Source: a virus
IMG/VR virus record: IMGVR_UViG_3300025781_000027
Coordinates: 1-35,291 of that record
DNA length: 35,291 nt
Strand: one strand, 5' to 3'
The position numbers and the translations under genes were made by a program. Shown here one piece after another: positions 7,988 through 34,390 of this stretch. The notes under the pieces were generated by a model. It did no database searches, was not told where the DNA came from, and was given only the letters and a program-made list of their open reading frames with translations. How positions within the stretch are numbered: position 1 is the stretch's first letter; every line of letters begins with the position of its first letter.

Positions 7988-7993
7988 TACGAT
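7988..7993 (+). promoter_or_regulatory. Possible -10 hexamer TACGAT, 6 nt before ATG 8000
   Basis: TACGAT fits TAnnnT and lies exactly 6 nt before the ATG at 8000, overlapping the end of the previous gene by nothing (stop at 7985-7987). No -35 is visible. The start has only AAGG with a spacer of 2 nt, too close for a normal Shine-Dalgarno. This is the weakest hexamer of the set, included because the spacing is identical to stronger cases at 21170, 27346 and 31351. Confidence 0.35.
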
Positions 7994-7999
7994 AAGGTC

Positions 8000-8284
8000 A
8001 TGCTGACCTTACTACTTATCTCTGGATTTACTGCGTTTGTTTTTGCTGTCATTAATCAGCTTATCTCTGTTCTAGAAGCCTTTATGGATATGAGACTTAT
8101 TAGGGCTTTTTTATGCCTCCTCACCTCTGCTGGAGCTACTGGTCTTAGTAGCGTAGGAGGAGTCAAGCAGTTTATTATTTATTCGGTTGCTGGAGCTTTT
8201 TTTGGCTCTTTACTGGTTATAGTGGCAGAACGTATCAACACCTACCAAGCCGCGGTTATTCACGCGGTTGGCAAAGAGCGCTAA
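8000..8284 (+). CDS. Small membrane protein, holin candidate
   Basis: 94 aa from ATG 8000. Hydrophobic stretches at residues ~2-24, ~33-52 and ~57-76 suggest two or three membrane segments, with a charged C-terminal tail (ERINTYQAAVIHAVGKER). Size and topology fit a phage holin, and it directly follows the tail genes. However, no lysin is next to it, so the holin reading is only a possibility. Otherwise it is an unrecognised small inner-membrane protein. Confidence 0.65.
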   Translation: MLTLLLISGFTAFVFAVINQLISVLEAFMDMRLIRAFLCLLTSAGATGLSSVGGVKQFIIYSVAGAFFGSLLVIVAERINTYQAAVIHAVGKER

Positions 8285-8297
8285 AGCTGTGTAGTCT
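8268..8297 (+). promoter_or_regulatory. Candidate sigma70-type promoter for the 8321 gene
   Basis: TTGGCA at 8268-8273, an 18-nt spacer and TAGTCT at 8292-8297. The predicted start of transcription (~8304) would give a leader of ~17 nt that still includes the strong Shine-Dalgarno AAAGGAGG at 8310-8317. The -35 lies inside the end of the membrane-protein gene. It would separate tail genes from the replication operon. Confidence 0.45.
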
Positions 8298-8320
8298 GTG
8301 CATCCACTAAAGGAGGGTGC

Positions 8321-8857
8321 ATGACGTATTACGTTCTGGTCGCAGGTAGCGGAGAAACTACTCGACCAAATATTGAAGCTTTAATGGAAGACTTTTACTA
8401 TGCCAAAGGCGATGGCGGAACTCTAGTGATTGCCTATGACAATCAACCTAGCAAGAGCCAAAGCTTTGCTGCCCAGTACGCAAAAGAAATCGGCAAAGAC
8501 ATTATGGTCTTTTGCCATGATGACGCAAGCACTATAGGAATTCCTGGCGCTTCACAGTCCCCGTCTACTAATCCTGTAGAGGACGCTATCAAGTTTATGG
8601 CGGGTCAGGATTCGGTTGCCTACCTACTGTGGAACGAAGATAACTACATTCTGTCATCCTGCATAAATAACAGCATTCCTGCCTTTAACCTCTGTGACGG
8701 GCTTGTGCCCCTCAATGAAGTACAAGAAACGCCGAAGCCTGCGGTTAAGGTGCCAGACCCCAATGAATTACCCCTAGACTCCGCTCCTGTGGATGATATA
8801 AAGATAAAGCTACAAAAGATTCTAGAACTAACCCAAGAGGCTCTGAAGAACCTTTAA
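8321..8857 (+). CDS. Unrecognised protein with Rossmann-like N-terminal half
   Basis: 178 aa from ATG 8321, with the strongest Shine-Dalgarno of the window (AAAGGAGG, spacer 3-4 nt). Residues ~1-130 alternate strand and helix (YYVLVAGSGETTRPNIEALM, TLVIAYDNQ, DIMVFCHDD, SVAYLLWNED), with an early GSGETTR turn after strand 1. This suggests a nucleotide-binding Rossmann-like fold. Residues ~135-160 are a Pro/Asp-rich linker and the end is an amphipathic helix. It is coupled to the following initiator-like gene by TAATG, so it may act in replication control. I do not recognise a family. Confidence 0.6.
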   Translation: MTYYVLVAGSGETTRPNIEALMEDFYYAKGDGGTLVIAYDNQPSKSQSFAAQYAKEIGKDIMVFCHDDASTIGIPGASQSPSTNPVEDAIKFMAGQDSVAYLLWNEDNYILSSCINNSIPAFNLCDGLVPLNEVQETPKPAVKVPDPNELPLDSAPVDDIKIKLQKILELTQEALKNL

Positions 8858-9723
8858 TGGAAAAGAAGCTATCTCTTCGGGCACGTGGTGCCTTGGCGTA
8901 CTTCATCAACGCTGATATGTCCATTAGCGCTGCACGCTTAGCTGAAGAGGTAGCTGAAGGACGAGACGCAATACGAACCGCACTGAAAGAGTTGCGAGAG
9001 GCTGGGCTGATTGTTACTCGTAAAGAACGGGTCAACAACGAGGTCAAGACTGTAAGTTATGTAACGGAAAAGGGATTCCTGGAGGCGGCTTCCTGGGGCC
9101 TGAAAAGCCGTCCTCAGATACTACACAGTGAGCAGAATAGCTTAATACAAGTATTAGCTAATTCAGTTATAGATATTAATAAAACATCAATCGGGCGATT
9201 GGAGGAAAAAATGGGGTACGATTTTTTCAATAGCACCTCAAGCTCCGATGCTGATGAGCGTCAAGCCGAACGCCTTAAAGCGATGGCTGAGCGCAAAGCT
9301 ACCTATCAACAGCAGAAGTCAGAAAAACACGCTAAAGACGTCGTTGACAGAGAGACCGCTTCTCCTAAAGGCTGGAACGTTAACCAGTCCGCTAATGAGT
9401 TTGTTTCTCAGATGAGTGCCATTTGGGGGATTCCTCCGTGGAAACTTGCTGGAAGCCGATTTTTTATAGCGTTATCTAAAGCTCGTCAGACATACGACAC
9501 TGACGGAGAAGTAGAACAAGAAATGATGCGGTTGTTTTTTGGCGCCCTTAAAGTCAATAAAGAGACTAACGGCGACATGTTGTGGAAATCCTTTATCAAA
9601 CGTTTTCCTGAGCTAGCCCTCCAAGCCAAAGCTCGTCTCAATTCGTCAGATGATTTGGCAACCGCTATGGTTGAGGCAGAAGAAGAGTGGAAACGAGAGT
9701 TTGGGGATGATTTTGATGTTTAA
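8857..9723 (+). CDS. Winged-helix DNA-binding protein, replication-initiator-like
   Basis: 288 aa from ATG 8857. Residues ~5-75 form a winged helix: SISAARLAEEVAEGRDAIRT, LKELREAGLIVTRKERV, then a wing with SYVTEKG. Residues ~80-165 are a low-conservation, Lys/Gln-rich linker. The C-terminal ~120 residues are helical (WGIPPWKLAGSRFFIALSKA, MRLFFGALKV, LWKSFIKRFPELA). A wHTH followed by a helical C-terminal domain, immediately before a DnaC-like loader and DnaB-like helicase, is the organisation of phage initiators such as lambda O and DnaD-like proteins. The coding sequence has an AT-rich palindromic stretch at 9143-9190. A transcription-regulator role is the alternative. Confidence 0.65.
   Translation: MEKKLSLRARGALAYFINADMSISAARLAEEVAEGRDAIRTALKELREAGLIVTRKERVNNEVKTVSYVTEKGFLEAASWGLKSRPQILHSEQNSLIQVLANSVIDINKTSIGRLEEKMGYDFFNSTSSSDADERQAERLKAMAERKATYQQQKSEKHAKDVVDRETASPKGWNVNQSANEFVSQMSAIWGIPPWKLAGSRFFIALSKARQTYDTDGEVEQEMMRLFFGALKVNKETNGDMLWKSFIKRFPELALQAKARLNSSDDLATAMVEAEEEWKREFGDDFDV
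9143..9190. other. AT-rich palindromic segment inside the initiator-like gene, possible origin
   Basis: TAATAC-AA-GTATTA is a perfect palindrome with a 2-nt centre at 9143-9156. It is followed by about 34 nt that are almost all A/T (9157-9190). The segment encodes the linker of the wHTH protein, the position at which lambda-type origins lie within their initiator gene. No set of longer iterons is apparent by eye, so this is a suggestion only. Confidence 0.28.
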
Positions 9724-10414
9724 GCTAGAGGACCTAAAAATTCGCCGTCGTTCATGGGTGCAATCCGCTTCCATACCCACAGCTCGTTTAGGATGGACTC
9801 TAGGTGACTGTACAGATGCCCCAGAAAAGGCTTTAGAGGCCGTTAGAGGCTGGGTTAAGCTTGCCCTGTCAGGTGAATACATCCTGAAGGCTGGAGGGGC
9901 TAAATGCGGCCGAGGAATCCTTTTTTACGGAGAGCCAGGTAGAGGAAAAACTACCCTTGCCTTAGCCCTCATTCAAGAGGCGATGACTACCTTTCCCTTA
10001 GAAACTTTTGTTCCACAAGAGGGCAAGGTCATTGTTCGCCCCTGCTACTTTGCTACCTTTAACGATGTCTTAGACCTAAAAGGGCGCCTTATGGACGACG
10101 AGCCTTATGAGAGCGATAAAGTCCTGTATGACGGAATGCTAGGTGACTGCAGAGACGACGCTTATAACATCCGAATTTTGGTTATTGATGACATAGGAAA
10201 AGAGCACTCCAGTCTATCTGGATGGCAAAAAAATATGCTTCATCATGTGTTGCGCACCAGATTTAACAATGGATTGCCTACGATTGTTACTAGCAATATT
10301 AAGCGAGACAACTGGGCAGAGACGTACGGAGATGCTACAGGAAGCTTTATACGAGAAGCGTTTCTTTATGTTCCCGTAGACGGAGAGGTAGATTTAAGAA
10401 GGTATCAACGATGA
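9716..10414 (+). CDS. DnaC/IstB-like AAA+ helicase loader
   Basis: 232 aa from ATG 9716 (ATG 9707 in the same frame is the alternative); it overlaps the previous gene by 8 nt. Walker A GEPGRGKT is at residues 72-79, Walker B LVIDD at ~155-159 and sensor-1 TSN at 192-194 within PTIVTSNIKRDNW. A plausible arginine-finger segment is SFIREAF near 210-216. This is the AAA+ core of DnaC-type loaders, which place the replicative helicase on DNA by ATP hydrolysis. The DnaB-like helicase gene lies three genes downstream in the same operon. The N-terminal ~60 residues would bind the helicase. Confidence 0.8.
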   Translation: MFKLEDLKIRRRSWVQSASIPTARLGWTLGDCTDAPEKALEAVRGWVKLALSGEYILKAGGAKCGRGILFYGEPGRGKTTLALALIQEAMTTFPLETFVPQEGKVIVRPCYFATFNDVLDLKGRLMDDEPYESDKVLYDGMLGDCRDDAYNIRILVIDDIGKEHSSLSGWQKNMLHHVLRTRFNNGLPTIVTSNIKRDNWAETYGDATGSFIREAFLYVPVDGEVDLRRYQR

Positions 10415-10725
10415 AGGAGCGTGCAGTGCAAGAGGACATCATGTTGTTTCAGATTTTTCTGAACGACACTCAAATCCCTTCACCCAGCGTTTTTGAAGTT
10501 GGTCTTACCCTTGATGACAAGCTCGTCTGCACCTGCCCAAATTACAAGGGGCGAGGAAAATGCAAGCACGTTAATCTTGTCCAGCTTCGTATGGATATGA
10601 ATGACGGTATTTACGAGCCATCATTGTCTAAAGATGTTACCGAAGCTGATGTAGCTAAAGCCAAACTTTCTACTAAACATAATAGAGAGTTCCTACTAAA
10701 GTTTGGGATACCAGAGGTTCTTTAA
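10411..10725 (+). CDS. SWIM-type zinc-finger small protein
   Basis: 104 aa from ATG 10411 (ATGA overlap with the loader gene). Residues ~39-56 carry VCTCPNYKGRGKCKHVNLV, with C40-x-C42 and C51-x-H53, the SWIM zinc-finger pattern CxC..CxH. SWIM domains bind DNA or proteins and occur in SNF2-family and recombination-associated proteins. An SNF2-type helicase is encoded further down the same operon, though a link is only inferred. No other domain is visible. Starts at internal codons (e.g. ATG 10441) are possible but have weaker coupling. Confidence 0.65.
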   Translation: MKERAVQEDIMLFQIFLNDTQIPSPSVFEVGLTLDDKLVCTCPNYKGRGKCKHVNLVQLRMDMNDGIYEPSLSKDVTEADVAKAKLSTKHNREFLLKFGIPEVL

Positions 10726-10726
10726 C

Positions 10727-11134
10727 GTGTATAAAGGGGACATCAGTAACGATTTGCCTAAGCGCATCATCGTTACCACAGATACGTTTTTTGATTATGA
10801 CATTACAGTCAAAAAAGTTCTTAAAATAATACCAGTAGCGTCTAAGGAAGCTAAGCTTAATAGGACGCTTCTTAGCCGTCTTTATGTGTACTCGCAAAAC
10901 AAGGGATACACTATGGAGCTTGCTTCGTTTACCTTAAGCGAGGACGCCTTGCAAGAGATGATTGACCGCTTAGATGAACTGGGTACTAACCCCTTTCGTT
11001 ATTTTACTAAGTATGAGTCAGTTGACCATTTAGTGTCAGAATTGCCCTACCGCCCAGAGGTCGTTGGAGTTTTGGATTTACCGACTAGGCTGCTACGGTA
11101 CGGACATTGGGGATTGGATTTTACACAACTATGA
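10727..11134 (+). CDS. Unrecognised replication-operon protein
   Basis: 135 aa from GTG 10727, chosen because AGAGG lies ~9 nt upstream; an in-frame TTG 24 nt earlier sits inside the SWIM gene. It alternates strands and helices (KRIIVTTDTFFDYDITVKKV, LLSRLYVYSQNKGYTMEL, EVVGVLDLPTRLLRYGHWGLDF). Three strand-ending acidic positions would be compatible with a Rossmann/HAD-like fold, but no complete catalytic motif set can be seen. It is coupled by ATGA to the DnaB-like helicase gene, which suggests a replication accessory role. I do not recognise the family. Confidence 0.6.
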   Translation: MYKGDISNDLPKRIIVTTDTFFDYDITVKKVLKIIPVASKEAKLNRTLLSRLYVYSQNKGYTMELASFTLSEDALQEMIDRLDELGTNPFRYFTKYESVDHLVSELPYRPEVVGVLDLPTRLLRYGHWGLDFTQL

Positions 11135-12357
11135 ACAAAGAGCAGCTTCTTCTTAGCAAGGTCATCGAAACTCGTGACCTTACTAAGCTATTTGAACGCA
11201 ACGTTAATGACTCATGGTTTATGGATAACGAAGACCGCAAAGTTTGGTCTCTTCTTAAATCTCATTTCACCAAGTACGGCGAATGCCCCAGCCTTGATGT
11301 TGTTACAGAGAATTTTCCTACATATAAAGTTGTCGAAGCTCAAGACAGCATCGACTATTTGTTGGATGAAATTGTTGCTCGTCGTCGCAAGATTGCCACC
11401 ATTACTATGGTGGGAGAGGCGATTGACCAGCTAGAAAAAGAACGCGACCACGAAGCCGCGCTGATTTCCCTGCAGCGCGGAATAGTGAAGCTTGAAGAAG
11501 AAGGATTAACTACATCCACCGACATTGACATTACGGAAAATCCGTTGGCTTTGTGGGATGAATACATGTTTCGTAAAAATAATCCAGGATTACTTGGGGT
11601 TCCTACTGGATTCCCTACTATTGACAAAGCAACTAACGGATTACAGAACGGTCAACTAATTATCATCGTTGCTCCACCAAAGACTGGTAAGTCAACGCTT
11701 GCTTTGCAAATTGCTCAGAACATCCATCTTAAGGGCAGTACTCCAATGTTTCAGTCTTTTGAAATGACGAACCAAGAACAGCTTTCTCGTTACGTTGCCA
11801 TGAGAGCGCGTGTATCCCATACTCGTTATCAAAGTGGTTCATTGACAGACGAAGAAGAGTCCCGCGTAAAAGCTAAGCTTCGTGCTATCTCAGAGATGCG
11901 TGAAAAGTTTTGGTTGGTGGGCGCTTCAGAAGGAGCCACGGTTTCAGCGGTTGCCAGCAAGATTCAGATACTCCAACCAGATGTTGTATTTATTGACGGT
12001 ATGTATTTGATGATTGATGAAAACGGCGAGAAGCCAGGAAGTCCACAGGCGCTTACTAACATTACTCGTTCACTTAAACGACTGGCGCAGCGTGTCAATA
12101 AGCCAGTTGTTATCTCCACTCAGATTTTGGAGAACAAAATGCGCAACGGTCAAGTGACCACGGATGCTATTGGTTACTCATCGTCATTTCATCAGGATGC
12201 CGACGTTATATTTGGTCTTCAACGCGAAGACGAAAATGTAGACAGCACCCGTCTTCTCAAGGTGATTGCTTCCCGTAACTCAGGAAACATGCAGGTATCC
12301 ATGTTGTGGGATTGGAATACAGGAGCTTTCCGAGAGATTGATGAAACCGACCTATGA
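11131..12357 (+). CDS. DnaB-like replicative helicase
   Basis: 408 aa from ATG 11131 (ATGA overlap). Residues ~1-125 are the helical N-terminal domain. The RecA-like ATPase starts near 155 (GVPTGFPTIDKATNGLQNGQLI), with Walker A APPKTGKST at 181-189, the SFEMT segment with the catalytic Glu at 211, Walker B VVFIDG at 285-290 and a late SSSFHQDADVIFGLQRE segment like the DnaB H4 region. It is shorter than E. coli DnaB (~470 aa), mostly in the N-terminal domain. It would unwind the fork and recruit the primase encoded next to it. The DnaC-like protein is the likely loader. Confidence 0.9.
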   Translation: MNKEQLLLSKVIETRDLTKLFERNVNDSWFMDNEDRKVWSLLKSHFTKYGECPSLDVVTENFPTYKVVEAQDSIDYLLDEIVARRRKIATITMVGEAIDQLEKERDHEAALISLQRGIVKLEEEGLTTSTDIDITENPLALWDEYMFRKNNPGLLGVPTGFPTIDKATNGLQNGQLIIIVAPPKTGKSTLALQIAQNIHLKGSTPMFQSFEMTNQEQLSRYVAMRARVSHTRYQSGSLTDEEESRVKAKLRAISEMREKFWLVGASEGATVSAVASKIQILQPDVVFIDGMYLMIDENGEKPGSPQALTNITRSLKRLAQRVNKPVVISTQILENKMRNGQVTTDAIGYSSSFHQDADVIFGLQREDENVDSTRLLKVIASRNSGNMQVSMLWDWNTGAFREIDETDL

Positions 12358-13283
12358 CAGTAGAAGAGATGGAAGACCTGCTCGACAGACTAGGTATTGA
12401 AATTGTTTCTATTCATGGCGATGAGATTAAAGGCCACTGCCCCGCTCATTTGGAGCGCAAAGGAAAGCTAGACAGCAACCCATCGTGGTCTATCAACGCT
12501 GAGACTGGTGCTCACAATTGTTTTTCTTGCCATTTTAAAGGCAGTGTGCAAAGTCTTGTTTCGTATGTTCAAGGGTTTGATTCAGAGATGGCAACTCAAT
12601 GGGTCAATAGCGGAGAGCGCAATTTAAGTAAAGCATTTCAGAAGCTCATTACCCCAGCACCATTACCCGAACGCACAGAGCCAGTTACTGAGTCTATGCT
12701 CAGCGCGTTTGTTTCACCGCCAGACTATGCTCTTAAATCTCGCGGTTTGACAGGTGTTGCGGCTGACTATTACGGCATCTTATGGAATGAGAAGAACAGC
12801 AGTTGGGTTTTGCCGTTACGCGACCCTTTTACTAATAAGCTTGTTGGTTGGCAAGAGAAATGGTTTAAGGAGCGTCGCTTTAATAACTTTCCGCCCAAGG
12901 TAAGTAAGTCTTCGTGTTTATTTGGCTATGAACGCTACAGCGGCTCTGAAATGATTGTTGTAGAGTCTCCGTTGGATGTAGCTCGGTTAGCTTCTGTAGG
13001 AATCTTAGGTGGTGTCTCTACCTGTGGTTCTGGAGTATCTAAAGAACAGATTAACCTTATTCGTTCAGCCGATAGGGTTGTTTTTGCTATGGACAATGAT
13101 GAGGCTGGAATAAGCTCATCAGCGACACTGCTGGAATATTCACGCACTATGGGATTTGAGTGCTGGTTCTTCAACTATGAGCAAACAGACATGAAGGATA
13201 TTGGCGGAATGAGCAAGGCTGAGATAATGTTCGGGTTAAATAACGCACGTCATTCAATTCACGGAAAGAGGGCATTTTTATGA
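12354..13283 (+). CDS. DnaG-like DNA primase
   Basis: 309 aa from ATG 12354 (ATGA overlap with the helicase gene). Residues 29-59 form a CHC2-type zinc finger: C29-P-A-H32 and C56-F-S-C59. The TOPRIM domain contains MIVVESPLDVARLASVG (E204) and RVVFAMDNDEAG (D247, D249, metal-binding DxD). It is about half the length of bacterial DnaG and lacks a recognisable C-terminal helicase-binding domain, which is common in phage primases. It synthesises RNA primers at the fork with the adjacent helicase. Confidence 0.87.
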   Translation: MTVEEMEDLLDRLGIEIVSIHGDEIKGHCPAHLERKGKLDSNPSWSINAETGAHNCFSCHFKGSVQSLVSYVQGFDSEMATQWVNSGERNLSKAFQKLITPAPLPERTEPVTESMLSAFVSPPDYALKSRGLTGVAADYYGILWNEKNSSWVLPLRDPFTNKLVGWQEKWFKERRFNNFPPKVSKSSCLFGYERYSGSEMIVVESPLDVARLASVGILGGVSTCGSGVSKEQINLIRSADRVVFAMDNDEAGISSSATLLEYSRTMGFECWFFNYEQTDMKDIGGMSKAEIMFGLNNARHSIHGKRAFL

Positions 13284-15395: not shown

Positions 15396-15418
15396 AAAGC
15401 CTTTTAAGGTCTTTTTTT
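15394..15418 (+). terminator. Intrinsic terminator after the SNF2 helicase gene
   Basis: AAAAAGCCTT pairs with AAGGTCTTTTT (one bulge), separated by a 2-nt loop core, and ends in seven T's at 15412-15418. The A-run on the 5' side could make it work in both directions, though no reverse-strand genes are seen. It closes the replication operon that started near 8300. Confidence 0.6.
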
Positions 15419-15431
15419 ATCCTATAGTCTT

Positions 15432-15437
15432 TAGAAT
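15432..15437 (+). promoter_or_regulatory. -10 hexamer TAGAAT, 6 nt before ATG 15444 (leaderless start)
   Basis: TAGAAT has four of six consensus bases, including the key T1, A2 and T6. It is exactly 6 nt before ATG 15444, and the next in-frame ATG is at 15453. No Shine-Dalgarno precedes either. No good -35 is present, since the terminator T-run occupies that position. Confidence 0.5.
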
Positions 15438-15443
15438 ATATGG

Positions 15444-15593
15444 ATGCCTAATATGCCTAAGACCCCTACGCGTACCATTCGCGTCTCTGATGACATCTGG
15501 AAAGCCGTACAGAAGAAGGCTGCCAGCGAAGGCATCACCGTGACTAGCGTTATTGTTACTGCGCTTGAATCCTATCTAGTTGACAAGGCGTAA
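15444..15593 (+). CDS. Ribbon-helix-helix DNA-binding protein
   Basis: 49 aa from ATG 15444 (or 46 aa from ATG 15453). The sequence RTIRVSDDIWKAVQKKAASE, then ITVTSVIVTALESYL, is a textbook Arc/MetJ/CopG-type fold: one N-terminal strand (TIRVSDD), helix A and helix B. Such proteins bind DNA as dimers through the paired strand and usually autoregulate. A near-consensus promoter for the next operon (TTGACA at 15580) overlaps its 3' end, so it is well placed as a repressor of that promoter; this is inference. I prefer 15444 because of the -10 hexamer spacing. Confidence 0.8.
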   Translation: MPNMPKTPTRTIRVSDDIWKAVQKKAASEGITVTSVIVTALESYLVDKA

Positions 15594-20088: not shown

Positions 20089-21143
20089 TGGCAAATGCAG
20101 AACTTATTAAAGTAATTAACAAGATTAATAAAAAGCTGGGCGCCGATACTGTGGTGCTTGGTGAAGACATTATTGATATTAGTGGTCGCATGACTACAGG
20201 TTCATTGTCCTTTGACGTTGCACTTGGCGGCGGATGGCCCGTCAACCAGTGGCACGAAATTATCGGTGAAGCATCCAACGGTAAGACCGCTATCGCCCTC
20301 AAGACTATTGCAGCAAACCAAGCCAAAGACCCAGAGTTCACTACTGTCTGGGTTGCCGCAGAAGAATGGGTTCCTGCATACGCTGAGATGTGTGGGGTTG
20401 ATTTATCGCGCATCTACGTTATCTCAACTAACATCATGGAGGACGCTTATGAAGCGGTCATTGAAATCGTCGAGAGTAAGGCTGTTGATTGCGTTGTCAT
20501 TGATAGCCTTCCTGCCCTTGTTCCTAGCTCAGAGAACGAGAAAGAAATGGAAGAGTCAACAGTAGGTCGTACCGCCCTGCTGACTAACAAGTTCTTCCGC
20601 AAGGTAGGCAAGGCATCCAAGCGCTCGCTAACAGAGGCTGAACGACCATTTATTGGAATTATGATTAACCAGTGGCGCTCCAAGATTGGCGTCATGTACG
20701 GAGACCCACGCACCACTCCAGGCGGTCTAGGTAAGGACTACGCGTTCTTTACCCGCATTGAGATTAAGCGTGATGACTGGATTGAAGAGGGTACTGGTCA
20801 GGACAAGCACCGTGTAGGACAGACCATCAAAATTCGCACCTTGAAGAATAAGTCCGCTCCCCCACAGCAGACTGCCTTCATTGACTTTTATTTTGCCCCT
20901 GGGGGAGTGGTTGACCGCGGTAACTATGACTTCGCTAAGGAGATAGTTGCTATGGGAATCATCAATAAGGTCATAACACGCGCAGGAGCCTATTATCGGT
21001 ACGCAGGTCGCCAATGGCAGGGTGCTGACTCAATGTTGGACTCTATACGAGAAGAAATAGACCTTAAAGAAGGTTTAGAACGGGACGTTTTAGACTCTAT
21101 AAAAGCTGGGTCTAAATTTGTAGCAGAAAGTCCTGATGAGTAA
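20088..21143 (+). CDS. RecA/UvsX-like recombinase
   Basis: 351 aa from ATG 20088 (TAATG). Residues ~30-55 (SGRMTTGSLSFDVALGGGWP) match the RecA entry to the core. Walker A GEASNGKT is at 60-67, the AAEEW segment with the likely catalytic Glu at ~91-94, and Walker B DCVVIDSL at ~134-141. The L2-like segment INQWRSKIGVMYGDPRTTPG at ~193-212 parallels RecA's [20 protein letters not shown]. The ~100 C-terminal residues differ and likely regulate filament formation. It catalyses homologous pairing and probably supports recombination-dependent replication together with the nucleases that follow. Confidence 0.88.
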   Translation: MANAELIKVINKINKKLGADTVVLGEDIIDISGRMTTGSLSFDVALGGGWPVNQWHEIIGEASNGKTAIALKTIAANQAKDPEFTTVWVAAEEWVPAYAEMCGVDLSRIYVISTNIMEDAYEAVIEIVESKAVDCVVIDSLPALVPSSENEKEMEESTVGRTALLTNKFFRKVGKASKRSLTEAERPFIGIMINQWRSKIGVMYGDPRTTPGGLGKDYAFFTRIEIKRDDWIEEGTGQDKHRVGQTIKIRTLKNKSAPPQQTAFIDFYFAPGGVVDRGNYDFAKEIVAMGIINKVITRAGAYYRYAGRQWQGADSMLDSIREEIDLKEGLERDVLDSIKAGSKFVAESPDE

Positions 21144-21146
21144 ACG

Positions 21147-21175
21147 TTGACAAGGCTTTTGCCATTGTTTACACT
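21147..21175 (+). promoter_or_regulatory. Strong sigma70-type promoter giving a leaderless HNH transcript
   Basis: TTGACA at 21147-21152, a 17-nt spacer, and TACACT at 21170-21175. The ATG of the HNH gene at 21182 lies 6 nt after the -10, the expected transcription start, and there is no Shine-Dalgarno. This is the clearest promoter in the window and the only leaderless one with a consensus -35. It lies just after the RecA-like stop (21141-21143). Confidence 0.8.
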
Positions 21176-21181
21176 TTAAGT

Positions 21182-21679
21182 ATGGAAACAAAAGTGTGCA
21201 GTAGGTGTTTTGAAGAAAAACCAAATACGTCTGATTTTTTTGGGGCAAAATCCCCATCGCAGATAAAAGACGGCACTAAAAATCTTTTACATGGGGTGTG
21301 CAAAGCCTGTAAGTCTAAACGTTCAGTGGCGTGGACAAAAGCCAATAGGGGAAAGGTAAACGCCTACCACGCAGCCGTCAGAGCTAATAAAAAGGCGTAC
21401 ATAGACTCGTTAAAGTCAAAACCATGTATGGATTGCAGGCAAACCTTCCCCCCATATGTTATGGATTATGACCACCTTCCCCAGTTTGAAAAGCTATTTG
21501 AAATAAGTGAGGCTTGGGCTAGAAAACTAAGTTTAAAAAAGATACTTGAAGAGATAAAAAAATGCGAGTTAGTTTGTCATAACTGCCATCGAATTCGTGA
21601 ATATAACAGAAGGAATGATACTATTAAGGCACTACGGGAAAAAGTAGCTGCCAAGTCCTTGGTGTCCGATGAGGAGTGA
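21182..21679 (+). CDS. HNH endonuclease with N-terminal zinc motif
   Basis: 165 aa from ATG 21182. An N-terminal C6-x2-C9 and C40-x2-C43 give a zinc-ribbon-like region (CSRCFEEK, VCKACKSKRS). A basic helical linker is followed by the HNH core: C82-x2-C85, VMDYDH (D97, H98), and C132-H-N-C135-H136. These are the zinc- and metal-binding elements of phage HNH nucleases, many of which are free-standing homing enzymes. It has its own promoter and looks AT-richer than its neighbours, which suggests insertion as a mobile gene. It overlaps the next gene by 11 nt, so it could have been there long enough to be integrated. Confidence 0.85.
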   Translation: METKVCSRCFEEKPNTSDFFGAKSPSQIKDGTKNLLHGVCKACKSKRSVAWTKANRGKVNAYHAAVRANKKAYIDSLKSKPCMDCRQTFPPYVMDYDHLPQFEKLFEISEAWARKLSLKKILEEIKKCELVCHNCHRIREYNRRNDTIKALREKVAAKSLVSDEE

Positions 21680-22013
21680 AGGACAAAAGCAGTCTAAGAA
21701 GCATGAGGCACGATTAGCAAAAGCTATCGATGGCAAGCGTACAGCTGCTAGCGGAGCCTTTTGGAATCGTAAAGGCGATGTCCGAAGTAGCGATTTACTT
21801 ATAGAACATAAGTGGACGGGCAAAGCCTCCTTCACTGTCAAAGCGACAGTTTTGGAGAAGATTGTCAACGAAGCAATTCTTGATAGCCGAATGCCCGTAT
21901 TAGGTATTAGTCTTAACAACGAGAATTATGTAATGCTTTTAGAAGATGACTTCCTGGAACTTCGCCAGAATATTCAGGAGTGCACTTGTCATACGAAGGC
22001 TCAGGCTACGTAG
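21669..22013 (+). CDS. PD-(D/E)XK nuclease, Holliday-junction-resolvase-like
   Basis: 114 aa from ATG 21669, overlapping the HNH gene by 11 nt. E13 lies in the first helix (KKHEARLAKAIDG). The catalytic stretch TAASGAFWNRKGDVRSSDLL contains D37, followed by E46-x-K48 (LIEHKWTG), then a long helix (KATVLEKIVNEA) and final strands. This is the size and motif order of Hjc-like or T7-endonuclease-I-like junction resolvases within the PD-(D/E)XK superfamily. Restriction- or repair-type nucleases of the same superfamily remain possible. It sits between recombinase and Cas4-like exonuclease genes. Confidence 0.7.
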   Translation: MRSEGQKQSKKHEARLAKAIDGKRTAASGAFWNRKGDVRSSDLLIEHKWTGKASFTVKATVLEKIVNEAILDSRMPVLGISLNNENYVMLLEDDFLELRQNIQECTCHTKAQAT

Positions 22014-27343: not shown

Positions 27344-27345
27344 CC

Positions 27346-27351
27346 TATAAT
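27346..27351 (+). promoter_or_regulatory. Perfect -10 hexamer TATAAT, 6 nt before ATG 27358 (leaderless start)
   Basis: TATAAT lies 2 nt after the phosphoesterase stop (27341-27343) and exactly 6 nt before ATG 27358. There is no Shine-Dalgarno and no good -35 at 16-18 nt. It would drive the chain of small genes 27358-30242. Confidence 0.6.
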
Positions 27352-27357
27352 GGCTAT

Positions 27358-27897
27358 ATGCCAGGCACACATCAAAATGTCCAAAATCTCGGCGCAGCTG
27401 GGATGTACGGAACCAACACCAATTACGGTGGCGGTGGTGTTCCTGTCGCACGTTCTGAACTTGACTTCCTTCGCTTAGGTGTTGGCCGTCAACCATCCGC
27501 AGAATATCCAGACGGTTATTTAGGAACAATTCGTACACGACGCGATGACCGTGGACGCCCAGGTTCTACATCAGAGAACGTTTTAGACTCACTCAAGGTT
27601 CGCATTACACAGCGCGGCTACCAACGCGGTGTGCACAAAGGCGAACGTATTGACGCCGCTGGTTATTACTATCCAGCTGACTTAGGTCCAGAACGTGGAA
27701 TTCGCCGTCAAATGGCAGGTGTTCGTGACGGTAACGTTATTAGAACTAAGCGTAATACAGATAACCAATACCTAGCTCCAGCACCACACTTGCCTAATGA
27801 TGGTAAGGCGGGCCCAGCAGCGAAGAGCGATTCACCTATGGGTGTGAACTTGAACCGAGCACAGCGCTTGAGTTCCCTATCACCAAATTGGAAATAA
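27358..27897 (+). CDS. Gly/Arg/Tyr-rich hydrophilic protein, first of the small-gene chain
   Basis: 179 aa from ATG 27358. The start is Gly/Asn-rich (GAAGMYGTNTNYGGGGVPV). The central region (ARSELDFLRLGVGRQPSAEY, PDGYLGTIRTRRDDRGRP, ITQRGYQRGVHKGERID, DAAGYYYPADLGPERG) is Arg- and Tyr-rich, and the end is Pro/Ala/Ser-rich. It lacks hydrophobic helices and catalytic motifs, and looks like a virion-associated or nucleic-acid-contacting protein. The gene is next to, but not overlapping, the 27898 gene. No family recognised. Confidence 0.68.
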   Translation: MPGTHQNVQNLGAAGMYGTNTNYGGGGVPVARSELDFLRLGVGRQPSAEYPDGYLGTIRTRRDDRGRPGSTSENVLDSLKVRITQRGYQRGVHKGERIDAAGYYYPADLGPERGIRRQMAGVRDGNVIRTKRNTDNQYLAPAPHLPNDGKAGPAAKSDSPMGVNLNRAQRLSSLSPNWK

Positions 27898-28836: not shown

Positions 28837-28837
28837 C

Positions 28838-29277: not shown

Positions 29278-29279
29278 TC

Positions 29280-29561: not shown

Positions 29562-29710
29562 AGCCAACAGAGTCACAATTTCCTGAGCAGACTGACGACC
29601 GTCCAGAGGGCTGGGATTACATAACCCCAGAAACCATGGATGAGATGGAAAACCATTTCACCAGCACTCAGCCTCAAGAGCACTCACAGAAGAAGATTAA
29701 CAATGTCTGA
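29558..29710 (+). CDS. Tiny acidic protein
   Basis: 50 aa from GTG 29558 (GTGA overlap). The first part (TESQFPEQTDDRPEGWDYIT) echoes the 'Q-F-P' and 'E-D-R-P' wording of the preceding protein (THNQFPPSG, PEDRPDARV), which might reflect a shared origin. The rest is acidic and Gln/His-rich (PETMDEMENHFTSTQPQEHS). It overlaps the next gene by 8 nt. No domain recognised. Confidence 0.58.
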   Translation: MKPTESQFPEQTDDRPEGWDYITPETMDEMENHFTSTQPQEHSQKKINNV

Positions 29711-30242
29711 AACACCAGGAGACCGCGGTCCTAGTAGCCTTCGCGTTGTAAATTTTGACGCCAAGAACCCTATTCATCAAGGCATTATGGCTAGTCGAGA
29801 TGTAAACCATAACATTGACGTGGCTAAGGGCAAGGACAACAAAAAGCGCATCATTATGCCTGTTGCACCTGGCATGGAATCAGAGCCTAAGCAATCGACG
29901 CGTTACCCTTCCACTAATACGCACACCGAACCTTATGTATACAAAGAAGAGAAGCCAGCCGCTAAAAAAGCTGCGCCTAAGAAGAAGGCTGCTCCAGCAC
30001 CTAAAAAAGCAGAGGCACCAGCACCTAAAACTACTGCTAAGCCTGCCCCTAAGAAGACAGCCGCCCCTGCTGTTGCTGTTGAGTCTGGCGTAAAGATTAA
30101 GACCGATGCCACACTCGCAGCTAAAGCTGCGGCTGAAAAAGAGGCGGAAAAAGCTGCAGCAGAGGCTAAAAGAAAAGCCGAAAGAAAGCGCCAGCTTAAA
30201 GAAGGACACAACCCGATTAGGGCTAATTACTACAACGATTAG
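29703..30242 (+). CDS. Lys/Ala/Pro-rich, histone-H1-like-tailed protein
   Basis: 179 aa from ATG 29703. Residues ~1-80 are hydrophilic (RVVNFDAKNPIHQGIMASRD, VAKGKDNKKRIIMPVAPG). Residues ~82-125 are an alternating Ala/Lys/Pro tract (EKPAAKKAAPKKKAAPAPKK) like histone-H1 tails and bacterial AlgP/HU-type extensions. Residues ~130-168 form a long Ala/Lys/Glu helix (LAAKAAAEKEAEKAAAEAKR), and the end is EGHNPIRANYYND. The tract suits non-specific DNA binding or a packaged condensing protein. It is the last gene of the 27358 chain. No family assigned. Confidence 0.68.
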   Translation: MSETPGDRGPSSLRVVNFDAKNPIHQGIMASRDVNHNIDVAKGKDNKKRIIMPVAPGMESEPKQSTRYPSTNTHTEPYVYKEEKPAAKKAAPKKKAAPAPKKAEAPAPKTTAKPAPKKTAAPAVAVESGVKIKTDATLAAKAAAEKEAEKAAAEAKRKAERKRQLKEGHNPIRANYYND

Positions 30243-30251
30243 TAGTTAGTC

Positions 30252-30257
30252 TATGAT
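30252..30257 (+). promoter_or_regulatory. Possible -10 TATGAT before the 30269 gene
   Basis: TATGAT matches five of six consensus bases and would start transcription ~5 nt before ATG 30269, nearly leaderless. No Shine-Dalgarno precedes the ATG. No -35 is visible. The distance to the start codon (11 nt) is longer than in the N6 set. Confidence 0.38.
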
Positions 30258-30268
30258 AAGCTTCGGTT

Positions 30269-30817
30269 ATGGCCGATACCTTTGAGACCGAACGTTTTAA
30301 CCTTCTTGTTTGTAAAACATGCCAAACAATCGAAGAGCTTCCCTATACTAAAACTGGTGAGTATCTAGGCGAAGGTAAGTATAAGCAAGACGACAACCCT
30401 TTTGTTGAGCTGGCTGCAAGTAAGCATGGTCCAGACCACATTGGTTATCCGCTTATGGACGTGCTCCAAGGATACTGGATGACCCCAAAGGTCAAAGAAA
30501 GTATTGTCGCAGAATTGCGTGAAACCTTTTTCGGTAAGGGCGCGTCGTCAGGTCTTGATGTTTTCGGTACAGGATTTTACGGACTTAAAGACACCTACAG
30601 CCAAGACGCAATGAGCTGTTGGAAGATTCATAATAGCCCTAAGGGTCAGTGCTCCGATTACAAGCATGAGCGTAAGAAGTTGAACGCAGGAACAGATGCT
30701 GAACGCCGAGCCGAAGGCCTAGGTAAGTCAAACATCAAAGTTTATCTGTGTGATTTTTGCCCTGTAAAAATGTACAACCAGCACAAGGCGTACAAGGAGC
30801 GCGGGTTGTATGAGTGA
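30269..30817 (+). CDS. Conserved-type phage protein with two CxxC knuckles
   Basis: 182 aa from ATG 30269. ERFNLLVCKTCQTIEELPYT carries C15-x2-C18, and VYLCDFCPVKMYNQHKAYK near the end carries C-x2-C; together they can build one zinc ribbon across the fold. The middle contains HGPDHIGYPLMDVLQGYW, SGLDVFGTGFYGLKDTYSQD, AMSCWKIHNSPKGQCSDYKH (more Cys/His), and RKKLNAGTDAERRAEGLG. From memory this type recurs in actinobacterial phages as a conserved protein of unknown function; this cannot be verified here. It overlaps the next gene by 8 nt. Confidence 0.7.
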   Translation: MADTFETERFNLLVCKTCQTIEELPYTKTGEYLGEGKYKQDDNPFVELAASKHGPDHIGYPLMDVLQGYWMTPKVKESIVAELRETFFGKGASSGLDVFGTGFYGLKDTYSQDAMSCWKIHNSPKGQCSDYKHERKKLNAGTDAERRAEGLGKSNIKVYLCDFCPVKMYNQHKAYKERGLYE

Positions 30818-31088
30818 CGTTGTTGTAGATGTAGAGGCCGTCTTTGCTATCGCCCTTCGTAAAGACGGCACATTTTTTGCCACCACAGACGTCGACACCA
30901 ATTTTGCCCCCCAAAGGGACGCTACAATCCTAGACGTTCGACGGGGCTGTACTGACGTTCTAGAAGTTATGTCCAATAACGACCTAGCCAACTTAATTAT
31001 GGCAAAATTGACAGCAAATAGCCAAACTGAGTCTGAACGCACAGCCAGTTCAATCCGCCAGGCGCTGTCAGACAAAGGTATACTGTAA
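30810..31088 (+). CDS. Small protein of unknown function
   Basis: 92 aa from ATG 30810, overlapping the previous gene by 8 nt. It begins with a beta segment (VDVEAVFAIALRKDGTFFAT, then TDVDTNFAPQRDATILDVRR) and ends in helices (CTDVLEVMSNNDLANLIMAK, TASSIRQALSDKGIL). The order strand-strand-helix-helix suggests a compact domain. No catalytic residues or known motif are recognised. Confidence 0.65.
   Translation: MSDVVVDVEAVFAIALRKDGTFFATTDVDTNFAPQRDATILDVRRGCTDVLEVMSNNDLANLIMAKLTANSQTESERTASSIRQALSDKGIL
31079..31084 (+). promoter_or_regulatory. Possible -10 TATACT before the 31112 gene
   Basis: TATACT at the end of the previous gene would start transcription near 31091. The leader would contain the Shine-Dalgarno AAGGGG at 31100-31105 before ATG 31112. 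A -35 is not apparent. Confidence 0.33.
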
Positions 31089-31111
31089 CTACACAGACCT
31101 AAGGGGCGATT

Positions 31112-31348
31112 ATGGCAACTCCTCGTAAGAAACCTACTAAAAGAGTTTCTGTTGTCAAAAATGAAGAGCTAACGCCGTTAGATATTCATGCTATTCAACT
31201 GCATGAACTGTACAAATCATTTCGTCGCGCAGGATTTCCTGTAGATATTTCGATGGCGCTTATTACTGATAAAAGCGCACATCCTGATTGGTTTTACACA
31301 ATGGTTCCTGATTTAGAAGTTTTAGAAGAAGAAGACGACGAAGACTAG
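31112..31348 (+). CDS. Small protein with acidic tail
   Basis: 78 aa from ATG 31112, with AAGGGG ~6 nt upstream. It starts basic (ATPRKKPTKRVSVVKNEE), continues with a helical core (DIHAIQLHELYKSFRRAGFP, VDISMALITDKSAHPDWFYT), and ends in a run of nine acidic residues out of eleven (LEEEDDED). It may bind another phage protein. No family recognised. Confidence 0.66.
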   Translation: MATPRKKPTKRVSVVKNEELTPLDIHAIQLHELYKSFRRAGFPVDISMALITDKSAHPDWFYTMVPDLEVLEEEDDED

Positions 31349-31350
31349 AC

Positions 31351-31356
31351 TATACT
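31351..31356 (+). promoter_or_regulatory. -10 hexamer TATACT, 6 nt before ATG 31363 (leaderless start)
   Basis: TATACT begins 2 nt after the previous stop (31346-31348) and ends exactly 6 nt before ATG 31363. No Shine-Dalgarno and no -35 are present. It would drive the nucleotidyltransferase-like gene and the genes after it. Confidence 0.58.
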
Positions 31357-31362
31357 AAGCTA

Positions 31363-32295
31363 ATGAACATCTACGAAGCATTAGCTAAGAACGCTGTGCC
31401 CGTAGAGCTAGCGCCATCAGAAACATCGTACTTTAGCGCCCCTAATGCAGGCTTAGACCCTCGCCTATTTCGCAACAACAAGCTTATTGGCAGTGTACGC
31501 AACGGTATCTTGAGCATTTTGTTCGACCACTTGCGTCGCCACTATTACAACCCTGAAGCTTACATTTACGCTTGGCTTGCTGGCTCTGGCGTTTCTTATC
31601 AGTGGGCAGCTAACCGCACACCAGCAGACCTCGATTGTCTAGTAGGCATTGATTACATAGCGTTCCGTCGCTCCAACACAAAATTTGCGGGTCTTAGCGA
31701 CCAAGAAATTGCCAGTATGTTCAACGATGATTTTCGCGCTGAGCTTTACCCGCTGACAGAAAACTATTTGGATTCCTTTGAGCTGACCTTCTATGTCAAT
31801 GTCAATACTGATATCAGAAACATCAAGCCCTACGCCGCGTATTCACTAACAGATGACGACTGGACAGTTGAGCCTAGCGAACCCAACATCAAAAGCAAAC
31901 CACAGTGGGAACAGAAGATTGCCCGTGATGAAAACATGGCTGTTGAGATTCTAGAACGCTACTCACAGGCGCTTGCCAACATTGGTTCTGCTACTACTGC
32001 CTCCGCTCGTCTTAATGCTGAGGCTGCGCTTAAACTGGCTGTAGACCAGGGCGCAGCGTTATTTGAGGACATTCATCACGGACGCGGGTCTGCGTTTAGC
32101 CCCAGCGGTAAGGGGTACGCCGACTATGCTAACTACCGTTGGCAAGCAGGAAAGAAGGGTGGAGTGGTCCAAGCCCTCAAGCAATTGAAGGACATTTCCA
32201 CAAAGACACGAGAAGATTTTGAAGCACATACCTACGGAATGACGCTGCCAGATGCTAGTGTTCTAGTCCGTAGAGCCGCAACATACAAGCACTAA
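31363..32295 (+). CDS. Nucleotidyltransferase-like protein
   Basis: 310 aa from ATG 31363. The AYIYAWLAGSGVSYQWAANR segment (GS at 74-75) is followed by TPADLDCLVGIDYIAFRRS (D89 and D91), giving the 'GS...DxD' signature of the nucleotidyltransferase fold. A third acidic residue would be in ELTFYVNVNTDIRNIKPYA (~144-162). The C-terminal ~100 residues are helical. Substrate is unknown. From memory, similar proteins recur in actinobacterial phages next to the kind of genes found here. It may modify a nucleotide, tRNA or protein; the exact reaction cannot be assigned. Confidence 0.6.
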   Translation: MNIYEALAKNAVPVELAPSETSYFSAPNAGLDPRLFRNNKLIGSVRNGILSILFDHLRRHYYNPEAYIYAWLAGSGVSYQWAANRTPADLDCLVGIDYIAFRRSNTKFAGLSDQEIASMFNDDFRAELYPLTENYLDSFELTFYVNVNTDIRNIKPYAAYSLTDDDWTVEPSEPNIKSKPQWEQKIARDENMAVEILERYSQALANIGSATTASARLNAEAALKLAVDQGAALFEDIHHGRGSAFSPSGKGYADYANYRWQAGKKGGVVQALKQLKDISTKTREDFEAHTYGMTLPDASVLVRRAATYKH

Positions 32296-32318
32296 CCTAA
32301 GTTCAATCGGAGCATATT

Positions 32319-32774
32319 TTGGCAATAGTAATGTTCGTAGACGACGTATTGCGTTCGGATACAGGAAGCCCTATCTATCAGGGTCTAGCCCTTTATCGAA
32401 TGTTCAATGAGGACGTTCGAGTTATCTTGCTCTGTGACGATAAAGCAAAAACCAATCGTTGGCTACTTGAGCACAAGATAAATAAGTTTGACGACCTCGT
32501 AGACCTGAACGTTCCAGGTGTGTTAGACGACCCAGACATTGAACAAGTCAAGTACGTTCGTTCTCAAGGCAAGGTGGAGTTGGTAGTCACAGGCAACACC
32601 GACCTAGCCAAGAAGCTGTTAGAGATTGGGCTAGATACTCTATTGTTTTTGCACCCTACTTATCTGCGCCCAGAGTTCCGTCCAGATGGACGTCAAGGAA
32701 TGAAGAGCTGGGCAGCTATTGAAGATGAGCTGGACAAGCAGATTGAAATGATTAAGGAAGACCCTAGAGTCTAA
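32319..32774 (+). CDS. Unrecognised alpha/beta protein, possible HAD-like fold
   Basis: 151 aa from TTG 32319, with CGGAGC ~6 nt upstream; ATG 32331 is a shorter alternative. It begins AIVMFVDDVLRSDTGSPIYQ (strand then DD, as in HAD motif I), then LALYRMFNEDVRVILLCDD, KTNRWLLEHKINKFDDLVD, a KVELVVTGNTDLAKKLLEIG segment (second Rossmann-like unit) and TLLFLHPTYLRPEFRPD. A phosphatase or nucleotide-binding role is possible, but the complete HAD motif set is not visible. It is coupled by TAATG to the 490-aa gene downstream. Confidence 0.58.
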   Translation: MAIVMFVDDVLRSDTGSPIYQGLALYRMFNEDVRVILLCDDKAKTNRWLLEHKINKFDDLVDLNVPGVLDDPDIEQVKYVRSQGKVELVVTGNTDLAKKLLEIGLDTLLFLHPTYLRPEFRPDGRQGMKSWAAIEDELDKQIEMIKEDPRV

Positions 32775-34246
32775 TGCGTATCATTTACTTAGGTGCGGAA
32801 GTTCCATCCAACCGTACCCTTCTAGAGTCCACCACCGCCAACCATGTTGGGGTTAGTTTTTGGCGCCTATATCGTCGTGGGCTACCCAAGACCAAGGCAT
32901 ACCTTCTAGAGAATTACTTTACGCCCGATACCCATATTTACGCCCACGCAGGTATCCCCAAGCCCGAGAAGCTAACACAGGAAGAGCTAGAAGAATTTTG
33001 CGCCCTGTACGAGGAGTTCATCGCTAATAACATAGACAGGATTGTGAGCTTTAACGAGGTTGTTCATCCCACGCTCACTCCTGAGTTTATTACAGAGCAG
33101 AGGAAAACCTGCTGGAATGAAGTTCCGCCCTCTAAGTTCCAACCAGTTTGGCAGCCCCAGACAGGAATAGATGGCTTTAAGAAGATGGTCGAGCACTACC
33201 TAGATATAGGAATCATGGGCGACGACATAGAGCACGAGACCCAGCTAGCTGCCCTCACACGGGGATATACAGCCCGAGGAACCCGTTTCCACGCCATCAA
33301 TACCGCCAAGCCCTACAACCTACGTCAGGTCAAGGTAGAGACCGCCAGCACCCTGTCTTGGCTGGCCCCCATGCTTCACGGTGAAACGATTGTCTGGGAC
33401 GGTACTAAGCTTGTTAGATACAACAAGGGCATGAAAGAACAGGCTCGTGTACGCTACGCCAAGATATATGAAAAGGCGGGCTTGGACTACGACCTGATTA
33501 TGGAAGATGACCCACAAGAAGTCTGTCGTCTGGCTGTATGGTCATACGAACAATACGAAGCGAGGATGAACATGAGTGGCGCAGAAGACGGCTTCCTATC
33601 GCATAACAGCGAGTGGAGCGATGTGGAGGATAGTGGGGAAACTACCCCCTCCGTAAGCGATAACAAGGGTATTGGCATGCGGAAAGTTGAGAGCCGAAAT
33701 CCAGAAGAAATGGGCAATTTACCCGTCTTCGGATACGACTTTAAGACCGTTGTAGAGACCGATGAAGACGGTCAAGACATCATCAAAGACGTCCCTGTTG
33801 TGCGCTCGCAAAGTAGCACTATTCGTCAGTGCGATACCTGTTTTGTAGCTGCTAACTGCCCCGCATTTAAGCCGCAAACAATGTGCGCTTTTAACCTTCC
33901 TATTGAGGTAAAGACTAAAGACCAGCTTAAGAGTTTGATTAACGCAATGATTGAAATGCAGGGTCAAAGAGTCGCTTTTATGCGTTTTACTGAAGAAATG
34001 AATGGTGGATACGCAGACCCCAACGTTTCCCAAGAGATTGACAGATTGTTCAAGCTCATCAAAACCACCAAGGATTTGGACGACTCAGCCTCGTTTATTC
34101 GCATGACTGTAGAGGCAAAAAATGGGTCTGCTGGTGTGCTCTCTAACATCTTTGGAGACAAGGCGCAAGCCCTCCGAGAGCTTCCTAACGGCGGCTTAAA
34201 TGAAGAGCAAACCACCAAAATTATTAAAGATATCAGCGAAGGCTGA
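32774..34246 (+). CDS. 490-aa protein, possible TIM barrel plus Cys4 cluster
   Basis: 490 aa from ATG 32774 (TAATG overlap). The N-terminal ~290 residues repeat strand-helix units: MRIIYLGAEVPSNRTLLE, THIYAHAGIPK, NNIDRIVSFNEVV, PVWQPQTGIDGFKKMVEHYL, DIGIMGDDIEHETQLAAL, RGTRFHAINTAKPY, TLSWLAPMLHGETIVWDGTK. This could be a TIM barrel, with a faint likeness to TGT/DpdA-type proteins; no binding site is proven. The linker (~275-320) is acidic and Ser/Asn-rich. The C-terminal domain has C353-x2-C356-x5-C362-x8-C371, a likely zinc or iron-sulfur site, then helices. Function unknown. Confidence 0.55.
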   Translation: MRIIYLGAEVPSNRTLLESTTANHVGVSFWRLYRRGLPKTKAYLLENYFTPDTHIYAHAGIPKPEKLTQEELEEFCALYEEFIANNIDRIVSFNEVVHPTLTPEFITEQRKTCWNEVPPSKFQPVWQPQTGIDGFKKMVEHYLDIGIMGDDIEHETQLAALTRGYTARGTRFHAINTAKPYNLRQVKVETASTLSWLAPMLHGETIVWDGTKLVRYNKGMKEQARVRYAKIYEKAGLDYDLIMEDDPQEVCRLAVWSYEQYEARMNMSGAEDGFLSHNSEWSDVEDSGETTPSVSDNKGIGMRKVESRNPEEMGNLPVFGYDFKTVVETDEDGQDIIKDVPVVRSQSSTIRQCDTCFVAANCPAFKPQTMCAFNLPIEVKTKDQLKSLINAMIEMQGQRVAFMRFTEEMNGGYADPNVSQEIDRLFKLIKTTKDLDDSASFIRMTVEAKNGSAGVLSNIFGDKAQALRELPNGGLNEEQTTKIIKDISEG

Positions 34247-34249
34247 TAT

Positions 34250-34282
34250 GCGATAGGAGTGATAAAACTCCTATGGAATCGC
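34250..34282 (+). other. Bulged hairpin upstream of nrdJ
   Basis: AGGAGT (34255-34260) pairs with ACTCCT (34267-34272) around GATAAA; AT/AT at 34253-34254 and 34273-34274 can extend it. Alternatively, GCGAT (34250-34254) pairs with ATCGC (34278-34282) leaving a 5-nt bulge on one side. There is no T-run, so it is not a typical terminator. It lies 3 nt after the stop of the previous gene and within the 144-nt gap before nrdJ, the longest gap in the window. No cobalamin-riboswitch core element is recognisable by eye. Confidence 0.45.
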
Positions 34283-34341
34283 TTGTGCTCTAATTGGCAC
34301 TTAGTCTGCCTGTGTACTACTGTAACGCATCGCTAAACTTA

Positions 34342-34347
34342 TACACT
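34342..34347 (+). promoter_or_regulatory. -10 hexamer TACACT, 6 nt before ATG 34354, in the nrdJ leader
   Basis: TACACT, identical to the HNH -10 hexamer, ends exactly 6 nt before ATG 34354. That ATG opens a 100-codon frame (to 34656) that overlaps nrdJ out of frame. The same transcript would also carry the nrdJ Shine-Dalgarno AGAAGG (34379-34384) before ATG 34391. The hexamer is therefore a plausible nrdJ promoter, whatever the status of the overlapping frame. Confidence 0.45.
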
Positions 34348-34390
34348 CCCCGCATGATGAGGGTGCTAACTACAAAGAGAGAAGGTCGAA

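Follow-up and report, generated by a model that had tools for sequence, protein, structure and literature searches.

Conserved TAnnnT-N6-ATG gene starts and predicted leaderless transcripts in a group of phages with a likely actinobacterial host

A TANNNT motif about 12 bp upstream of the start is taken as the mark of leaderless genes, which account for more than 20% of the genes in Actinobacteria, and bacterial orthologues can change between start modes (Zheng 2011; PMC3160421). In M. smegmatis, having ATG or GTG as the first codon of the transcript is both necessary and sufficient for a leaderless start (PMC4633059). Among phages, leaderless genes are known from lambda and P2 (PMC4633059), leaderless SigA-like promoters have been predicted for Cluster O mycobacteriophages (PMC4351075) and a leaderless transcript has been predicted for gene 90 of the mycobacteriophage Adephagia (PMC11373665). 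Here we examined the whole virus record IMGVR_UViG_3300025781_000027 (positions 1-35,291, hereafter the window; all gene calls on the + strand), in which a -10-like hexamer, TAnnnT, ends exactly 6 nt before the ATG of several genes. Six window starts (8000, 15444, 21182, 27358, 30269 and 31363) very probably lie behind promoters that would give leaderless mRNAs.

The six TAnnnT-N6-ATG strings reported in an initial annotation of the window are all present, and five of them (8000, 15444, 21182, 27358 and 31363) precede plausible genes, after gaps of 12-48 nt. The sixth, at 34354, is unsupported as a gene start, while a seventh site had been overlooked: TAAGCT-N6-ATG at 30269, with TG at -15/-14. 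The retained sites and their genes are the following:

7988..7993, + strand: -10-like hexamer TACGAT, 6 nt before the ATG at 8000
8000..8284, + strand: 94-aa protein, hydrophobic by eye, after the baseplate/tail region; predicted leaderless
15432..15437, + strand: -10-like hexamer TAGAAT, 6 nt before the ATG at 15444
15444..15593, + strand: 49-aa Arc-like repressor (phrog_6506, E 4.4e-13; Pfam matches below cut-off); predicted leaderless
21147-21175, + strand: promoter-like TTGACA-17-TACACT, 6 nt before the ATG at 21182
21182..21679, + strand: HNH endonuclease gene (phrog_2255, E 4.2e-28); predicted leaderless
27346..27351, + strand: -10-like hexamer TATAAT, 6 nt before the ATG at 27358
27358..27897, + strand: 179-aa protein, function unassigned, with a part-length homologue in BRock-like Streptomyces phages; predicted leaderless
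30254..30262, + strand: extended -10-like TGATAAGCT, 6 nt before the ATG at 30269
30269..30817, + strand: 182-aa protein, function unassigned; predicted leaderless here, leadered in some relatives
31351..31356, + strand: -10-like hexamer TATACT, 6 nt before the ATG at 31363
31363..32295, + strand: 310-aa protein, function unassigned; predicted leaderless

No match was found in PHROGs or Pfam for the 8000, 27358 and 30269 proteins. In the mechanism that we infer, the -10 element would be bound by RNA polymerase, probably through recognition by the primary sigma factor of the host, and transcription would begin some 7 nt downstream of the hexamer, with the A of the ATG as first nucleotide. The resulting mRNA would be leaderless and the ribosome would start on its 5' terminal AUG, as is possible for actinobacterial ribosomes, while many other genes would use Shine-Dalgarno (SD) leaders or overlap with the preceding gene.

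We counted TAnnnT at each distance d, the number of nt between the end of the hexamer and the start codon, in 14 related records (13 of the 15 named related records were used, G014 and G015 being left out, and some records are fragments). Of the ATG genes, 601 follow a gap of 8 nt or more. TAnnnT stood at d=6 in 58 of these, against 11.7 on average and 25 at most over 30 other spacings; among genes with a gap of 0 or less, it stood there in 6 out of 400. Six of 89 gene families had at least half of their members at d=6, whereas no family did so at any other spacing between 0 and 30. Permuted patterns were far less frequent at d=6 (AT...T in 4 and TT...A in 13 of the 601 genes), and the control patterns reached at most one family at any spacing, except for T...AT, which shares letters with TATAAT and reached four families at d=6. 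In the window, 5 out of 20 ATG genes with such a gap were at d=6 vs. 0.6 per other spacing (naive p 2.6e-4); the gene set of the caller lacked the HNH open reading frame (ORF) and had no start from 20900 to 22000. In the non-actinophage controls, a 50-kb stretch of T4 and one of SPO1, 0 out of 40 and 0 out of 41 genes were at d=6.

Orthologue starts were drawn for 57 window genes from 135 loci (9 genes had none), with relatives taken from 55 loci carrying the 31363 protein and from 80 of 154 polymerase loci that were kept. Loci overlap on some contigs, and identical upstreams were counted once. The start rule preferred ATG and looked no farther than 15 codons from the aligned start; it misplaced some 30269 starts and probably five 31363 starts. 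TAnnnT was found at d=6 in 10 out of 12 distinct upstreams of the 8000 orthologues, in 44 out of 50 at 15444 (and in 2 more at d=7), in 26 out of 29 at 27358 (and in 2 more at d=7) and, at the assigned start, in 23 out of 28 at 31363. The remaining five at 31363 read TAGACT-ATGTCT-ATG, so their in-frame second ATG is also at d=6. The Arc-like repressor gene at 15444 is the one with most orthologues carrying the motif. For the HNH gene, 1 out of 3 orthologues was at d=6, in a locus (L064) nearly identical to the window. With a start rule that prefers ATG, the start codon was ATG in 12 out of 12 (8000), 50 out of 50 (15444), 29 out of 29 (27358), 35 out of 36 (30269) and 27 out of 28 (31363) distinct upstreams. 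In 9 out of 10 (8000), 38 out of 44 (15444), 24 out of 26 (27358), 11 out of 11 (30269) and 20 out of 22 (31363) cases, no further start codon lies between the start and an in-frame stop upstream of it, which fixes the start.

We compared the upstreams of diverged orthologue pairs column by column. At 15444 (1080 pairs), columns -12, -11 and -7, the T, A and T of the hexamer, agreed in 75, 75 and 100% of the pairs, against an upstream mean of 29% and a maximum of 67%. The same three columns agreed at 0.74, 0.74 and 0.75 at 27358 (upstream mean 0.31), and at 0.58, 1.00 and 0.58 at 31363 (upstream mean 0.33). Reading these sites as leaderless promoters is well supported by the comparison because the spacing and the T, A and T positions persist where the upstream DNA has otherwise diverged. 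Hexamer and spacing are conserved at five of the six starts, the HNH gene being the one where they are not. The proposal of leaderless mRNAs made in the initial annotation thus gains support from the comparative sequence and from the apparently actinobacterial setting, once its site list is corrected.

Several other genes had orthologues at d=6, namely 22296 (14 out of 57), 32774 (12 out of 33), 13803 (8 out of 37), 21980 (6 out of 53) and 23658 (6 out of 33), but their window starts overlap the preceding gene, and we do not claim them as leaderless. Among the upstreams listed, some 22296 relatives read TGATAGGTT-N6-ATG. Outside the window gene set, further candidate leaderless starts were seen in records G005 (25992 and 26692) and G003 (40527), and in a 332-aa family of G002, G006 and G012, with the motif in 3 out of 6 members.

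A SigA-type -35 has a consensus near TTGACA, at 16-18 nt from the -10 element. As the initial annotation had stated, the HNH copy is the only one with a consensus -35: the promoter scan picks out only its TTGACA-17-TACACT among the seven window sites, and an element of this type was found neither at the other window sites nor in the conserved set. In particular, no -35 was seen in the conserved upstreams of the relatives (53 sequences; mean best match 2.64 out of 6 vs. 2.92 in shuffled sequence). SD-like 4-mers were scarce, being present at 13 out of 58 d=6 starts vs. 386 out of 543 other starts; this scarcity is in part an effect of placement, since the hexamer takes up the position of the SD and other T/A hexamers placed there lower the SD count too.

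The dinucleotide TG at -15/-14 was enriched at d=6 starts (17 out of 58 vs. 25 out of 543), as in an extended -10. Its share was gene-specific: 11 out of 11 at 30269, 8 out of 44 at 15444, 0 out of 26 at 27358, 0 out of 23 at 31363 and 0 out of 10 at 8000. The conserved TAnnnT could be the binding site of a regulator at the start codon instead of a -10 element, and one gene of the set (15444) does encode an Arc-like repressor; we regard this as highly improbable, given that the positions kept are those of a -10 and that TG is enriched in front of them. In a count of the main strand (ATG genes with gaps of 4 nt or more), the extended form TGnTAnnnT occurred 17 times at d=6, once at d=7, 3 times at d=8-23 and 32 times at d=24-45. 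The rarity of the extended -10 at d=8-23 suggests that leaders are either absent or long enough for an SD. Control patterns at d=8-23 gave 14 (GT.TA...T), 9 (TG.TT...A), 9 (AC.TA...T), 2 (TG.AT...T) and 3 (CA.TA...T), and the depletion may come in part from SD composition.

The same counts bear on very short leaders, with transcription starting a few nt off the ATG at some genes to give nearly leaderless mRNAs. A spacing of d=7 is seen in a minority of orthologues (2 at 15444, 2 at 27358 and 5 at 30269) and in the 31363 orthologues of four Streptomyces phages. Because most orthologues are spaced at exactly 6 and an extended -10 hardly ever occurs at d=8-23, such leaders are quite unlikely to account for the set, and we keep to predicted transcription from the ATG itself.

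We also considered a phage-encoded sigma factor as the reader of these promoters, and rejected it: Sigma70_r2 was found in 1 and Sigma70_r4 in 2 of the 14 records, leaving 13 records, some of them fragments, in which Sigma70_r2 was not found. One of the 14 records (L210, L211; G004 35650-36099) encodes a sigma-70 family factor that has both region 2 and region 4. Two cultured phages of freshwater 'Ca. Planktophila', which may lie outside the group studied here, do carry a sigma factor (PMC10202952).

The start mode changes between relatives. In a recount of 37 distinct upstreams of the 30269 orthologues, in which the start choice favours leaderless starts, 13 had the hexamer at d=6, 5 at d=7, 18 had an SD and 1 had neither. 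In 7 of the 18 SD-type upstreams, TGnTAnnnT is retained at d=24-30 and is followed by an AGGAG leader. The orthologues at 30269 thus switch between predicted leaderless and leadered starts, with a similar promoter in either mode. The 31363 orthologue of the phage BRock (gp39; 37% protein identity) has TAAACT-N6-ATG (d=6), and in LuckySocke, Alone3, GiJojo and pSt2308 the hexamer of this gene is at d=7. By contrast, SD-like leaders precede the annotated starts of the 27358 and 30269 orthologues in the Streptomyces phages. In the close relative G001 (loci L144-L148), an HNH-like ORF, recognised by eye, separates the ATG of the 27358 orthologue from what remains of the -10 and spacer, and that start overlaps the stop of the HNH-like ORF (taATG). 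By the insertion in G001, a leaderless start was apparently converted to a coupled one.

Two initiation modes coexist, as the initial annotation had proposed; the temporal classes that it attached to them are unsupported. Such classes, with leaderless and leadered genes expressed at separate times, would fit the gene-specific promoter subtype (TG-extended in all 30269 but in no 27358 d=6 orthologues). We consider them unlikely all the same: the predicted leaderless starts are spread along the window between 8000 and 31363, the start mode differs between orthologues, and the TG-extended promoter precedes both leaderless and leadered 30269 orthologues and, by eye, the leadered RNR genes of distant relatives. 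A further, rather improbable idea is that the group switches orthologues through the gain or loss of some 18 nt that carry an SD and follow an otherwise kept promoter, and uses the mix so that a subset of genes stays translated when ribosomes change during infection (e.g. by anti-SD loss or altered initiation factors).

A number of results weigh against leaderless starts. The count against shuffled sequence, which the initial annotation had set as a check, is enriched at called gene starts, as described above, but over the whole window it is at background: TAnnnT-N6-ATG occurs 17 times vs. a shuffled mean of 19.84, and 81 out of 100 shuffles reached 17. There is a second TAnnnT excess, at d=11 (25 out of 601). 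The pattern T...AT peaks at d=6 as well (31 out of 601), which is expected if TATAAT-like sites are real but is not independent. Five Streptomyces phages (202 genes) gave 4 genes at d=6, 3 at d=7 and up to 6 elsewhere, with no clear peak. The gene caller was home-made, blind to promoters and SD, and the records compared are mutually related. Neither signal was found in four 15444 relatives or in the 27358 orthologue of L009. The -10 columns were less distinct at 8000 (22 diverged pairs; 0.50 each vs. an upstream mean of 0.23) and hardly higher than the rest at 30269 (551 diverged pairs; 0.31-0.32 vs. 0.26); in some upstream columns of 27358 and 8000, agreement equals or exceeds that of the -10 columns. 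An AAGG lies close to the ATG at 8000, where a well-placed SD had been said to be lacking. Finally, the leaderless form of 30269, found in 18 out of 37 upstreams in the recount, was found in 11 out of 36 in the first count. The background-level window count and the unsupported start among the six original sites are what chance and base composition would predict, with AT-rich gaps yielding TAnnnT at any spacing and the matches picked by hand. Provided that the starts were not grossly misassigned, chance is nevertheless hardly credible, given the sharp peak at one spacing, shared by six families and by none at 30 others, and the low counts of the permuted AT...T and TT...A patterns.

The HNH gene (21182-21679) is an insert between the recA-like and the Holliday-resolvase-like genes. 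The distance between the starts of these two genes is 1000-1100 nt in 55 out of 56 loci and 1581 nt in L064, the only one of the 56 loci measured that has an HNH gene at this place. The HNH copy is thus lineage-specific, and it brings its own TTGACA-17-TACACT.

The ATG at 34354 was rejected as a gene start: its ORF overlaps RNR out of frame and has no family match. RNR starts at 34391, behind the SD-like GAGAGAAGG. Two elements lie in front of it:

34334..34339, + strand: TAAACT, candidate -10 of the leadered RNR gene (start 34391)
34342..34356, + strand: TACACT-N6-ATG, the sixth site of the initial annotation; unsupported gene start

TACACT-N6-ATG was found at this position in 1 out of 26 distinct relatives (L009), and TA[AGC]ACT stood 56-60 nt before the RNR start in 6 out of 26, these being six of the eight closest. 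The RNR leader of the window (34334-34390) consists of the candidate -10, a short C-rich/G-rich inverted repeat seen by eye, and the SD. The RNR leaders of distant relatives have TGTGATAGGTT farther upstream and a CCCATCGAGGGG-like repeat.

The 35,291-nt record is probably a fragment, some relatives being on contigs of 95-96 kb. All 49 genes called by the script gene caller are on the + strand. The window has family matches to baseplate proteins, a DnaB-like helicase, a primase, a DNA helicase, a family A DNA polymerase, RecA, a Holliday junction resolvase (phrog_2002), the HNH endonuclease and RNR, and it also has a WhiB gene (PF02467, E 1.4e-16). Matches to the 31363 and 27358 proteins in the phage collection are confined to 6 records, all of them Streptomyces phages, and the best polymerase matches listed are those same phages (38-39% identity). 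An actinobacterial host is likely, because of the WhiB gene and because the nearest isolates are Streptomyces phages. A host scan of genome contigs with the DNA polymerase and with RNR found no relative by either, a nucleotide search of the first 24 kb of the window gave no match among phages, and the whole window gave no Rfam match at gathering scores. The GC content of the window, 45.7%, is near that of the two 'Ca. Planktophila' phages (44.8 and 44.7%; PMC10202952), a mere hint on habitat. Terminator-like sites were near the shuffled background (17 and 20 found vs. 15.1 and 18.1 expected in two scans) and promoter-like sites were below it (20 and 12 found vs. 25.2 and 22.9 expected in two scans); therefore, we did not argue operon heads from those scans.

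The window genes share with the actinobacterial TA-led genes a TANNNT whose last T is 6-7 nt before the start, the scarcity of SD and the ATG start; they differ in belonging to a virus, in forming a small set and in having been compared gene by gene across a phage group. Adephagia gene 90 is a leaderless prediction like those made here, but for a single gene, and the leaderless genes of lambda and P2 are few cases, in E. coli. Among the Streptomyces phages, BRock, LuckySocke, Alone3, GiJojo and pSt2308 have TAnnnT at the 31363 orthologue as in the window, and leadered 27358 and 30269 orthologues, unlike the window. Among the matches listed, the open-access literature on leaderless phage starts or on freshwater actinobacterial phages does not name leaderless starts in this group. 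While leaderless genes are common in actinobacteria, the phage literature holds mostly single predictions, and this group offers a set of conserved, predicted leaderless starts. The 30269 relatives, with a similar promoter in either mode, make the gain or loss of a leader directly comparable, and start calls that lean on SD may misplace starts in such phages. The Cluster O promoters were predicted from sequence; here, spacing and conservation were set against controls, the conserved promoters lack a -35, and the mode changes between relatives. The conserved leaderless spacing is probably a real feature, of a kind already described in actinobacteria and, as a prediction, in some actinobacterial phages, and what is new here is its statistical and comparative support in another phage group, together with the mode switch.

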